From assembly GCA_015709675.1 (NCBI GenBank), contig CP054182.1:3761448-3825447 (forward strand): 64,000 nucleotides of DNA, in the 5' to 3' direction. Below, piece after piece: positions 15,960 through 22,154 of this stretch. Numbering within the stretch: the stretch's first letter is position 1; every line of letters begins with the position of its first letter. The stretch is from Ignavibacteriales bacterium (GTDB taxonomy: Bacteria; Bacteroidota; Ignavibacteria; Ignavibacteriales; Ignavibacteriaceae). The notes beneath the pieces were generated by a model. That model was not told the DNA's origin. It did not search any database and saw nothing but the letters and a program-made list of their open reading frames with translations. A program made the position numbers and the translations under genes.

Positions 15960-17153
15960 TTATTTTAGGAGTGTCATCTTCCTCGTAATACTCTGCCCCT
16001 TACCATAACTCAGTTTATAAATATATACTCCGCTTGCGTGGCTGGTGCCGTCAAAGGGAACGGTATATCTGCCTGCTGAGTAGCTGCCAGTGGCAAGTGT
16101 TGCAATCTCTTTGCCGAGGATGTCATATACTTTTAAGGTAATATCACTCTGCTCTGGGAGCGCAAATTCAATCTCCGTTATCGGGTTGAAGGGGTTGGGG
16201 TAGTTTTGATTCAGTGAGTAATCAATCTGATCAAGTGTTTCATCATTTTTTAATGAAGTTAAAATTGTATCTCCGTTTTCATCTACCAACAGATAACTTA
16301 TGTAATAACGAAACACACCGTCATAATTTGCCTGGAAAACCATCTTACGCCTGTCTTTGGTCAGATAAGGGTACTTTTCTCTGCGCCCCTGGTACTCCCC
16401 AAGGGTATATAAACTATCTGATATTTTTGAAATGTTTAATTTATACCTCTGTACTCCTACATACGATGTATCCTCAAAATAATCTACATAAAGATCAGCA
16501 TTTGTCGTCCCCATTGTACAATATAACCTCAATGTTGTACTATCCAACCACAGTCCATCTGAAAACAAATAACTATTTCCTTCATACGGAAAGTATTTCG
16601 GATACCAGAGCCCATCACGCAGCCGGGCAAGTTTGGTTTTCTCTTCTCCGACAACAAACATCGTAGTATCATCAGGAAAATTCATGCAGTACCAGCGGGA
16701 GGTTACATTAAATCCGTTATCATAGAACATTTCCGGTACGCCCCACTCCTTTGTTTCTTCATTGTATCTGCATTTATACATCCGGAAGCTCTGCATATCT
16801 GTAAAATACAAAGTCTTTCGGTCGGGTGTTAACACAGCATTTCTAGGTGAAAAACCTGGTATTACGTATAGGGGGCTAAATAAAAAGGGACCCTTCCAGT
16901 GACCAAGTGAATCCTTATACATAAACTTCACATTAGGGTCGCAATACACTAAGGTATCACCGCTATGAGTTAAACTAAAAAACGAATATCCAACAGACAA
17001 ACTGTCAGGCAGAAGTTTTTCCGGCTTGCTCCATATCTCCGGCGCATCAGGAAAAACAAATTGTGCCTGACAACTGAAAGTAACAAGTAACCAGAGGATT
17101 CCGGCATACCGGAATCCTCTGATAAATAATACATTAAAATTACTTCGCTTCAT
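15960..17153 (-). CDS. Exported PD40-like protein with T9SS sorting domain
   Basis: 397 residues. The N-terminus has a signal sequence (GILWLLVTFSCQAQF) after a short charged lead. The body resembles PD40/WD40-like propeller sequence (VLTPDRKTLYFTDMQSFRMYKC and LTKDRRKMVFQANYDG). The last 85 residues form the type A sorting domain of type IX secretion: NQNYPNPFNPITEIEFALP, LKVYDILGKEIATL, GVYIYKL and a final KMTLLK. The protein would cross the inner membrane by Sec and be exported by T9SS, with the tail removed at the surface. Function beyond that is unknown. The T9SS genes themselves are not in this window. Confidence 0.85.
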   Translation of the reverse strand: MKRSNFNVLFIRGFRYAGILWLLVTFSCQAQFVFPDAPEIWSKPEKLLPDSLSVGYSFFSLTHSGDTLVYCDPNVKFMYKDSLGHWKGPFLFSPLYVIPGFSPRNAVLTPDRKTLYFTDMQSFRMYKCRYNEETKEWGVPEMFYDNGFNVTSRWYCMNFPDDTTMFVVGEEKTKLARLRDGLWYPKYFPYEGNSYLFSDGLWLDSTTLRLYCTMGTTNADLYVDYFEDTSYVGVQRYKLNISKISDSLYTLGEYQGRREKYPYLTKDRRKMVFQANYDGVFRYYISYLLVDENGDTILTSLKNDETLDQIDYSLNQNYPNPFNPITEIEFALPEQSDITLKVYDILGKEIATLATGSYSAGRYTVPFDGTSHASGVYIYKLSYGKGQSITRKMTLLK

Positions 17154-18689: not shown

Positions 18690-19838
18690 ATGGCTTGGTT
18701 TTTTATAATCTTTTTTACATCCTTTGCTCTCACTAACCTTTACCTGTTAAGGAGGGTATGGCAGGGACTTGCTGCAGCACCCAAAGCGCTGCGGATTTTA
18801 GTGATTGTGATTATGTTCCTTTCCGCGGTTTCTTATGTGGCAGCCCGTGCCCTGCTTTCCGGGGTTGACAGCGGTCTCTATACCGTTGTGCTCTGGATGG
18901 GTTCTATCTGGTTTGCTTTCATGCATTACAGCATTCTTTTTGTGCTGCTCGGCGAACTTTTACGGCTTGTGATGAGAAAAAGGATAGCAGACCTTAAAAA
19001 AATTCCCCTTGCTTATGAAAAGATAAAACTCCGGTTTACTCTCCTCTCACTGGTTTTTGTACTGCTTACCGTAAGTTATGGTTACTTCAATGCTCGTGAT
19101 ATACAAGTCCGGGAAATCGAACTTGAAGTTGAAGCCCCGGGCGCTGAACTGGATTCACTTCGCATCGCTTTTTTCGCGGATTCACATCTTACACCGGTTA
19201 ACAACGGCTCAAAAGCCGGAAAAATTGCCGGGATTATTAACAGCCTGAAACCTGATCTGGTACTTGCTGCCGGTGATATCGTAGATGATCAGATATACCG
19301 GCTGCGTTCAAGAAACATTGACCAGCCCCTTAAAAAAATCACATCAACGTACGGCACATTTGTCGCTAACGGAAATCATGAGTATATCGTCGGAGTTGAG
19401 GAGGCGGATGAATTTTTAACTGCTGCGGGTTTCAATGTCCTTCGTGATTCCCTCACTACCATTGCCGGCAGTATTACCATTGCAGGAAGAGAGGACAGCG
19501 CAATATCGCGATTTACCGATGGCAAAAGGAAAGATGTAAAAGAACTTCTTTCGTCTGATTCTGCAGGGCTTCCTATTATTGTTTTGGATCATCAGCCGTT
19601 TGCATTATGGAAAACCGCTCAGGCAGGCGCCGCTATGCAGTTATCCGGGCATACGCATCACGGACAAATATGGCCGTTCAATTTTGTAACGTCCATGATC
19701 TATGAAGTCAGCTGGGGTTATAAAAAAATTGAGAATATGCACGTTTATGTCACGTCGGGTGCCGGAACATGGGGCCCGCCGGTGAGAACCGGAAGCAGTT
19801 CTGAAATTGTGCTTATAAGACTTTCACTAAAAAAATAA
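18690..19838 (+). CDS. Membrane-anchored calcineurin-like metallophosphoesterase
   Basis: 382 residues. Four hydrophobic segments occupy about the first 140 residues. The catalytic domain follows with the metal-binding motifs in order: FADSH, AAGDIVDD, GNHEY and GHTHHGQIWP, as in the YkuE-like family. It is a predicted phosphoesterase anchored at the inner membrane; YkuE-like enzymes can act on lipid-linked substrates, but the substrate here is not known. It is followed by two small RNA genes. It stands alone between the hairpin island and the RNAs. Confidence 0.88.
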   Translation: MAWFFIIFFTSFALTNLYLLRRVWQGLAAAPKALRILVIVIMFLSAVSYVAARALLSGVDSGLYTVVLWMGSIWFAFMHYSILFVLLGELLRLVMRKRIADLKKIPLAYEKIKLRFTLLSLVFVLLTVSYGYFNARDIQVREIELEVEAPGAELDSLRIAFFADSHLTPVNNGSKAGKIAGIINSLKPDLVLAAGDIVDDQIYRLRSRNIDQPLKKITSTYGTFVANGNHEYIVGVEEADEFLTAAGFNVLRDSLTTIAGSITIAGREDSAISRFTDGKRKDVKELLSSDSAGLPIIVLDHQPFALWKTAQAGAAMQLSGHTHHGQIWPFNFVTSMIYEVSWGYKKIENMHVYVTSGAGTWGPPVRTGSSSEIVLIRLSLKK

Positions 19839-19867: not shown

Positions 19868-19898
19868 TTTGCCAAAAATTAAAAAATACTTATATTTG
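19868..19898 (+). promoter_or_regulatory. Promoter of small RNA copy 1
   Basis: TTTG at 19868-19871, then 19 bases, then TATATTTG at 19891-19898. This matches the Bacteroidota-type TTTG / TAnnTTTG promoter, and copy 2 has the same spacing. Confidence 0.75.
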
Positions 19899-19899
19899 A

Positions 19900-19984
19900 A
19901 TACCTCGTCTTTAGGTTTCTCCCCTGACCTAAGGACCTTAGTATGAGGTAGCCCGGTGTATCCCCCAGCGCCGGGCTTTTTTTT
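19900..19984 (+). ncRNA. Small RNA, tandem copy 1
   Basis: A predicted transcript of about 80-85 nt between a TAnnTTTG promoter and a Rho-independent terminator. Elements in order: TACCTC (pairs with GAGGTA), a TTAGGT/ACCTAA stem with the loop ttctcccctg, an overlapping CTAAGG-A-CCTTAG alternative pairing, and a terminator stem AGCCCGG/CCGGGCT with the loop containing ATCCCCCA. Two loops are C-rich. It is about 95 percent identical to copy 2, 205 bases downstream, while the sequence between them is unrelated. I do not recognise it as a known RNA family, and no start codon or reading frame is conserved. Confidence 0.72.
19950..19984 (+). terminator. Terminator of small RNA copy 1
   Basis: AGCCCGGTGT pairs with GCGCCGGGCT over ten positions including wobbles, followed by eight T. 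Confidence 0.92.
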
Positions 19985-20073
19985 GCCCTAACCGGTTATT
20001 TAAGTGTTCCTCTGTCAGTTACGTATTTTTTTTCTCCCACAATTGATTTTTTTTAATTTTTTTTATTTACCCA

Positions 20074-20103
20074 TTGACAGAACTCAAAAAACTCTTATAT
20101 TTG
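20074..20103 (+). promoter_or_regulatory. Promoter of small RNA copy 2
   Basis: TTG at 20074-20076, then 19 bases, then TATATTTG at 20096-20103. The spacer sequence differs from that of copy 1, but the two boxes and the spacing are kept. Confidence 0.75.
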
Positions 20104-20104
20104 A

Positions 20105-20191
20105 ACACCTCGTCTTTAGGTTTCTCCCCTGACCTAAGGACCTTAGTAAGAGGCAGCCCGGTGTATCCCCCAGCGCCGGGCTTTTTTTTTT
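20105..20191 (+). ncRNA. Small RNA, tandem copy 2
   Basis: Same layout as copy 1: outer CCTC/GAGG stem, TTAGGT/ACCTAA stem with C-rich loop, CTAAGG/CCTTAG alternative, and the same terminator. Differences from copy 1 lie in the outer stem (CACCTC and GAGGCA instead of TACCTC and GAGGTA), which weakens it by two pairs, and in one base near the end of the middle segment. It ends about 180 bases before pckG and has its own terminator, so it is more likely a separate RNA than a pckG leader, though a tandem attenuator cannot be excluded. Confidence 0.72.
20155..20191 (+). terminator. Terminator of small RNA copy 2
   Basis: Same AGCCCGG/CCGGGCT stem as copy 1, followed by ten T. Confidence 0.92.
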
Positions 20192-20369
20192 GCCCTGCCT
20201 GAAAGATCACCTGAATACTCCGGAACGGTCCGATCTGCGTCAGAGTATTATCTTTTCTATCATAGCCCCTTTTCGTAAGTTTGTGTTAATATATTGTGGA
20301 ATATTCCCGTCTTTCGGCTTGTATTTCACTCCAAACTAACTAACACACATCAGAAATATTAGGATTACA

Positions 20370-22154
20370 ATGACCAACAATAAAAAATTGCTGGCCTGGG
20401 TGGAGGAAATGGCCTCACTCTGTCAGCCCGATTCTGTTTACTGGTGCAACGGAACTGAAGATGAGTTTAATGCTATGGCGGATCTCCTGGTCCGCAAAGG
20501 AGCGTTCATCAGACTTAATGAATCAAAGCGCCCCGATAGTTATTTCTGTACCTCAGACCCCTCGGATGTAGCCAGAGTTGAGGACAGAACGTACATCTGT
20601 TCAGCAAAAAAAGAAGATGCAGGACCCACTAACAATTGGGAAGACCCTGCAGTGATGAAAGAAACACTCAAAGGTCTTTTCACCGGCTGTATGAAAGGAA
20701 GAACCATGTATGTTATTCCCTACAGCATGGGCCCGCTCGGCAGCAATATCTCCCATATCGGAATCGAACTCACCGATTCACCGTACGTTGTGGTAAATAT
20801 GAATCTGATGACCCGTATGGGGCAGAAGGTTTTAGATGTTTTAGGCGACGGAGAATTTGTAAAAGGAATTCACTCAGTAGGAGTGCCCCTCGCTCCAAAT
20901 CAGGCCGACGTTCCCTGGCCCTGCAATAAAACAAAATACATCGTACACTTCCCTGAAGAACGTTCAATCATGTCCTTCGGAAGCGGCTACGGGGGCAATG
21001 CCCTGCTCGGCAAGAAGTGCTTTGCGCTTCGTATCGCTTCGGCAATGGCGCGTGATGAGGGGTGGATGGCTGAGCATATGCTAATCGTTGGTGTAACCAA
21101 TCCCGAGGGTCATAAGAGATATATCGCGGCCGCTTTCCCGAGCGCCTGCGGCAAAACAAATCTTGCCATGCTTACACCTACCATACCCGGCTGGAAGGTT
21201 GAAACGGTGGGTGATGATATCGCCTGGATGAAATTTGGCAAAGATGGCCGCCTTTATGCTATTAACCCCGAGGCAGGATTCTTCGGAGTAGCTCCGGGAA
21301 CTTCGATGAAGACGAATCCAAACGCTTTACTTTCAGCCACAAAGAAATCAATTTTTACTAATGTTGCGCTCACTGAAGATTACGATGTCTGGTGGGAAGG
21401 TCTGACCGAAGACAAACCCGCAAAACTGATTGACTGGCTCAGAAAAGAATGGACTCCGGAATCAGGCAGGGCAGCAGCCCATCCGAACTCCCGGTTTACA
21501 GCGCCAGCGTATCAGTGCCCGGCTATTGACCCTAAGTGGGAAGATCCGGAAGGAGTACCCATTGATGCAATTCTTTTCGGGGGAAGACGAGCATCGGTAA
21601 TTCCGCTTGTTGCTGAGGCGCGCGACTGGCAGCATGGAACCTATATGGGGGCGACCATCTCTTCCGAAATGACTGCTGCTGCGGTCGGCGGTCAGGGGCA
21701 GCTTCGCCATGATCCTTTTGCCATGCTTCCTTTCTGCGGTTACCATATGGGTGATTATTTCCAGCACTGGCTGAATATCGGTAACAACGCGGATGCATCA
21801 AAACTCCCGAAAATCTATTCCGTCAACTGGTTCCGTAAAGATGAAAACGGAAAATTCATCTGGCCGGGTTTTGGTGATAACATCCGTGTGCTGAAATGGA
21901 TCTTCGAACGCCTTGAAGGAGGCGGTGATGCAAAAGACTCCGCAATTGGCATTGTTCCCACCGAAGATGCTATTGATCTGAGCGGTCTTTCCATCACCCG
22001 CGATGATATGAAAAAGCTTTTTGAAGTTGATCTTAATAAAGCTCTTGCGGAGGTTGATGATATCCGCGAATACTTCAAAATCTTTGGTGATAAGCTTCCC
22101 GCGGAAATGGTTACCGAACTGGATGCTTACGAAGAACGGCTGAGAAGCATTTAA
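20370..22154 (+). CDS. pckG: Phosphoenolpyruvate carboxykinase (GTP)
   Basis: 594 residues, the normal size of the GTP-dependent enzyme, which interconverts oxaloacetate and phosphoenolpyruvate with GTP/GDP at the start of gluconeogenesis. The P-loop and reactive cysteine lie in [15 protein letters not shown], and [24 protein letters not shown] and PWPCN are family sequence. The N-terminus ([15 protein letters not shown]) binds substrate. AGGATT precedes the ATG. A TAAGTTTG at 20276-20283 could be the -7 box of its promoter, but no good -33 box was seen. It is monocistronic, with a terminator directly after it. Confidence 0.97.

Follow-up and report, generated by a model that had tools for sequence, protein, structure and literature searches.

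Twin small RNA units of an unnamed structured family

The two near-identical small RNA units located between a metallophosphoesterase gene and pckG of an Ignavibacteriales bacterium belong, according to sequence and covariation evidence, to a previously unnamed family of structured RNAs in the class Ignavibacteria, beyond the reach of the Rfam 15 models. The family is characterized by a covarying two-hairpin structure with constant C-rich loops. Both units lie in the window analysed here, a stretch of 64,000 nt (GCA_015709675.1, contig CP054182.1, positions 3,761,448 to 3,825,447), and all features described for them are located on its plus strand.

The window contains a direct repeat of 116 nt (92% identity, start-to-start distance 205), which comprises the twin units at positions ~19902-19984 and ~20107-20191, each about 80-85 nt long and consisting of two hairpins. 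The first-pass annotation had described them as near-identical transcripts separated by unrelated sequence, with promoter boxes and spacing kept, and the comparison of both copies bears this out. Identity amounts to 97.3% over the transcript (19903-19976 versus the same positions +205) and 100% over the terminator stem-loop, but only 74% over the 19-nt promoter spacer, and it is at chance level in the flanks (32% over 60 nt upstream, 28% over 60 nt downstream). We therefore conclude that the promoter boxes and the transcript are what has been kept. The predicted promoters (19870-19899 and 20075-20104) share an exact TTG-N19-TATATTTG arrangement, while the full –35 element is TTTGCC in copy 1, the weaker of the two, and TTGACA in copy 2. 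Their assignment is based on the sequence and on conservation throughout the family: 63 of 93 members match both boxes at 5/6 positions or better, compared with 0.3% of random positions.

For each transcript, folding predicts first a long hairpin that carries an internal bulge on its 3′ side and then an intrinsic terminator. In copy 1, hairpin 1 (19902-19949; fold and covariation) consists of an outer stem, an inner stem, the apical loop CUCCCCUG (~19919-19926) and the bulge, and the terminator (19951-19984; sequence and fold) is formed by GCCCGGUGU and GCGCCGGGC enclosing a CCCCC loop (19962-19966), with eight T residues. Copy 2 has the corresponding predicted hairpin at 20107-20154 and the same terminator, here with ten T residues, at 20156-20191. 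As already noted, the outer stem is weaker in copy 2 (4 bp compared with 6 bp). Folding energies are –38.8 (copy 1) and –37.3 kcal/mol (copy 2), with z-scores of –6.18 and –5.93 that none of 200 shuffled sequences equalled; the opposite strand folds worse (z –1.7). Together with the covariation described below, the conserved promoters support the view that each twin is a small-RNA unit in its own right, equipped with a separate promoter and terminator, transcription being predicted from sequence.

Covariation and distribution

The Rfam covariance search proposed in the first-pass annotation agrees with its remark that it knew of no named family with this structure: no Rfam 15 family reached its gathering score in the window, and a scan of 18 related loci yielded only tRNA and rRNA at the cutoff. 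A BLAST search of 59 relatives provided 23 usable sequences, which were aligned with MAFFT independently of the structure. In this alignment, 14 of the 25 base pairs of the three-helix structure show double-sided changes, and the covariation score is 0.444, compared with 0.215 after shuffling and at most 0.109 after sliding the structure. A larger alignment of 93 sequences gave double-sided changes in 24 of 25 pairs and a score of 0.593 (0.219 shuffled, at most 0.107 slid); it was fitted to the structure and is thus biased towards it, in contrast to the 23-sequence alignment. The terminator helix is paired in 99.1% of the cells (90 distinct sequences).

Of 245 Ignavibacteria genomes searched with a covariance model, in which the twins are seed members scoring 92.2 and 90.4 bits, 66 contain the element, among them 14 of 14 sampled genomes of the family to which the window belongs. 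In a search of the phylum, 34 of 296 genomes were positive, nearly all from the same class. Many genomes have a single copy. The genome of the window (4.21 Mb, one contig) contains four: the twins, C1:3387242 and C1:182066. A candidate for a fifth copy (C1:2071437, 38.7 bits) was rejected as a generic terminator without C-loops, and BLAST matches within M16-peptidase-like genes of two other genomes (G040/G042; L017, L019) were rejected as partial coding matches. Scanning viral contigs with a 20-mer gave no match.

The loops are constant while the stems are exchangeable. Hairpin 1 keeps UUCUCCCCUG in its loop even where the stem has been swapped wholesale between families; for example, loop 1 CUCCCCUG is unchanged across a full stem replacement of UUUAGGU/ACCUAAGG versus ACGACAGU/ACUGUUGU. 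The terminator likewise keeps a loop of C5-6 on GCCC(A/G)G(U/C)GU. The two C-rich loops are probably contact sites for other RNAs (or for a protein). In family f2 (named matches Melioribacter, Melioribacteraceae and Stygiobacter), the terminator loop is kept and the C-loop of hairpin 1 is lost, indicating that two C-loops are not essential everywhere.

The ancestral location precedes a DUF3098-like gene

Scanning the genomes of ~85,000 species for the terminator pattern revealed 70 sites, overwhelmingly in records of Ignavibacteria, Ignavibacteriales, Melioribacteraceae or Bacteroidetes. At 59 of these 70 sites, an ORF for a DUF3098-like protein follows directly downstream, 21-85 nt (median 33) behind the stem. 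Four sites, in three MAGs labelled 'Gammaproteobacteria' and one of Anaerolineales, show no other part of the element and were rejected as unrelated terminators. We refer to the linked gene as DUF3098-like because its Pfam match is weak, with 18.8-20 bits below a cutoff of 25. The protein has ~90 residues, a basic N-terminus and, by eye, two apparent membrane helices.

The operons around the RNA and this gene differ (UP82-RNA-DUF3098-EutN-DprA or LolD-RNA-DUF3098) while the pair is preserved, indicating that both travel together. The ancestral place of the RNA family is thus before the DUF3098-like gene and not before pckG. The gene itself is near-universal in the class (142 of 149), and no C-loop RNA was found upstream of it in the sampled members of families f7, f8, f13, f15, f16, f51, f55 and f58; the RNA is therefore a lineage-restricted companion. 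An octamer resembling a –10 element occurs in 17 of the 59 gaps between terminator and gene, which mostly provide no room for a separate –35 element.

Two further observations concern these loci. UP82 (L003 1193-1447 and its orthologues), a protein of 82-85 amino acids (ISDDIYDLLNSHGLIDEKAVRDY...) without Pfam match, precedes the RNA and the DUF3098-like gene in families f1, f2 and f3 and shows strong conservation there. One locus of family f54 (L296) carries the terminator GCCCAGTTTCATATGCTGGGC without a C-loop before the DUF3098-like gene, possibly a degenerate or precursor form.

Free-standing copies

The twins are free-standing copies specific to their genus. At the same place, the sister species (G001) harbors three tandem copies, and at least nine further genomes contain free-standing copies as well. 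In two genera (G002 and G013; L191, L192), copies without promoter boxes follow the 3′ end of one and the same gene for a small secreted protein, in the same neighborhood between genes named by eye as RNase HII and RsmE-like; they could possibly represent small RNAs derived from a 3′-UTR. The fourth copy in the genome of the window (G000:C1:182066-182152, L199) lies between convergent genes, 3′ of a gene pair encoding an SbtA-like bicarbonate transporter and a P-II-like protein. A common CO2 theme, considered because of the pckG, SbtA/P-II and EutN neighbors, was dropped since it is absent in other genomes.

Four or more C residues are kept in loop 1 of 19 of 20 free-standing copies and in loop 2, the terminator loop, of all 20. 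A strictly cis-acting attenuator does not explain this, whereas a role in trans or in protein binding does.

Proposed mechanism

We propose, with about even confidence, that the family consists of trans-acting, probably Hfq-independent C-loop sRNAs that were ancestrally a leader/attenuator of the DUF3098-like gene. In the ancestral arrangement, the order would be promoter, hairpin 1, terminator, 21-85 nt and the start codon of the DUF3098-like gene, with the RNA forming the start of the transcript. Because a terminator separates promoter and gene, this layout suggests that most transcripts would end as small RNA and that the DUF3098-like gene would be expressed largely by read-through. In some lineages, the RNA has been copied to sites without a downstream gene to attenuate, such as between convergent genes, at gene 3′ ends or, as in the twins, behind its own promoter. 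Since the copies at these sites keep their C-loops, they most likely function in trans. By analogy to sX13, NfeR1 and the CcsR/cuckoo RNAs, the most likely mode of action would be Hfq-free base pairing, in which the C-loops bind short G-rich stretches in a limited number of mRNAs and thereby block translation of these targets or alter their stability. In a broader version, the family would combine two roles, as the attenuating leader of a conserved gene for a small membrane protein and as a C-loop regulator acting in trans, and individual lineages would have released free-standing, tandemly multiplied copies. It would thus be a leader turned small RNA and seen at several stages, in a lineage in which no Hfq was found; we regard this version with somewhat less than even confidence.

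The RNA could also be a cis-acting leader only. In this case, it would attenuate transcription of the DUF3098-like gene by sensing a protein or RNA through its C-loops, and all free copies including the twins would be terminating by-products. The direct linkage at 59 of 70 sites, the persistence of the pair across different operons and the gaps, mostly too short for a full promoter, speak for such a leader. We nevertheless consider it unlikely as the whole explanation: the loop of hairpin 1, unneeded for termination, is kept in free-standing copies, the twins retain their promoters, no alternative antiterminator pairing is apparent by eye, and the DUF3098-like genes of many other families of the class lack the RNA.

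Candidate targets and Hfq

Returning to base pairing in trans as the preferred mode of action, we examined 578 translation starts in a sample of 864 kb, ~20% of the genome. These starts use ordinary GGAG/AGGA sites, and G4 is rare (14 of 578). Complements of the loops are not enriched at the 578 sampled starts, which is still compatible with few targets and indicates either a small regulon or a protein as the partner. The exact complement of loop 1, CAGGGGAGAAA, has 11 non-self sites in the genome, mostly within long open frames and none at a ribosome-binding site or start codon. Genome-wide, GGGGAG..ATG occurs 299 times (186 in the reversed control) and AGGGGA..ATG 270 times (216), but we did not use this excess as evidence because ordinary ribosome-binding sites can explain it. 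A search for Hfq in the genome of the window did not find it, consistent with C-loop sRNAs that act independently of Hfq, for example sX13 and NfeR1/alpha-r14.

If the partner is a protein, the RNA might act as a decoy or docking site for a C-loop-binding protein, following the CsrB-like principle, with titration set by the copy number. Two hairpins with similar C-rich loops, the lack of complement excess in the sampled mRNAs and the extra tandem copies in one genus would suit such a decoy. It seems rather doubtful to us, as no protein partner is known, many genomes have a single copy, and the C-loop sRNAs studied elsewhere act by base pairing (PMC10746234, PMC3771888).

Comparison with known C-loop RNAs

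The best similarity in Rfam is to anti-hemB, Burkholderia RNA 7 (RF02837), which also combines a hairpin with a C-rich loop and a terminator within 81 nt. It differs by an extra middle hairpin and its occurrence in Betaproteobacteria, and its model scores the twins with 32.5 and 29.2 bits at a cutoff of 49.5, so that they are not members. The 6C RNA (RF01066) has two C-rich hairpin loops, as in the family described here, but is Actinobacterial, and the twins gave no Rfam match to it even at E-values up to 10. C-rich loops are also present in the Cuckoo/CcsR RNAs (also PMC10746234). These RNAs of the CIN1 locus, with the DUF1127 protein CcaF1, further resemble the present family in that they occur in repeated copies and, throughout a class, are genetically linked to a gene for a small protein (PMC10253847). 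Here, the linked gene is DUF3098-like instead of DUF1127, and the RNA is located 5′ of it, equipped with a promoter of its own and a complete terminator, whereas the cuckoo RNAs of Rhodobacter are processing products of the DUF1127 transcript, from its 3′ part.

As in our family, the stems of the Hfq-independent alpha-r14/NfeR1 RNAs (RF02344) differ freely while the C-rich loop motif is ultraconserved (PMC10746234). Alpha-r14 is a 123-nt RNA of Alphaproteobacteria with three CCUCCUCCC loops, in contrast to the two hairpins of the twins with the loops CUCCCCUG and CCCCC (C5-6 in the family), and the RF02344 model scores the twins with 30.1 and 24.8 bits, well below its cutoff of 58.8. The sX13 RNA of Xanthomonas has apical loops of 4C, 4C and 5C on stable stems and acts without Hfq on G-rich motifs close to the starts of translation (PMC3771888). 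Stable stems topped by C-rich apical loops are common to both RNAs, but sX13 is a gammaproteobacterial RNA of 115 nt with three hairpins, for which the sections consulted mention no linked small-protein gene, and G-rich motifs are not enriched at our 578 sampled starts.

The RNA represents a new family of a known kind, the C-loop small RNAs, with an unusual leader/free-standing duality; in our best model, it would work like alpha-r14, sX13 and the cuckoo RNAs but belongs to none of their families. The literature searched contained no regulatory small RNA of Ignavibacteria and no relevant paper on this RNA family. With its conservation across much of the class, unambiguous covariation and invariant loop, the family provides a handle on post-transcriptional control in Ignavibacteria and on the unstudied DUF3098-like protein. 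Leader, 3′-end and free-standing copies together make it possible to test how the leader of an mRNA turns into a regulator of its own.

The upstream region of pckG

The twins are flanked by the metallophosphoesterase gene (18690-19838, plus strand; PF00149) and by pckG, encoding a GTP-type PEP carboxykinase (20370-22154, plus strand; PF00821, PF17297). Downstream of copy 2, a conserved block at 20270-20345 (plus strand) contains the palindrome GGAATATTCC and is kept in the sister species G001; it is likely the promoter/operator of pckG itself and not part of the RNA. A tandem attenuator of pckG, which the first-pass annotation had offered as an alternative, would agree with the same strand, the distance of ~180 nt and the upstream position kept in the sister species, but is very improbable given this separate block, the individual promoters of both copies and the fact that outside the genus the family shows no link to pckG, its usual partner being the DUF3098-like gene. 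As a probable promoter/operator, the conserved block would serve a regulator of pckG. Elsewhere in the window, the reading frame at 15960-17153 (minus strand) encodes a protein that terminates with a sorting domain of the type IX secretion-like kind (NYPNPFNP...), as is typical of Ignavibacteria.
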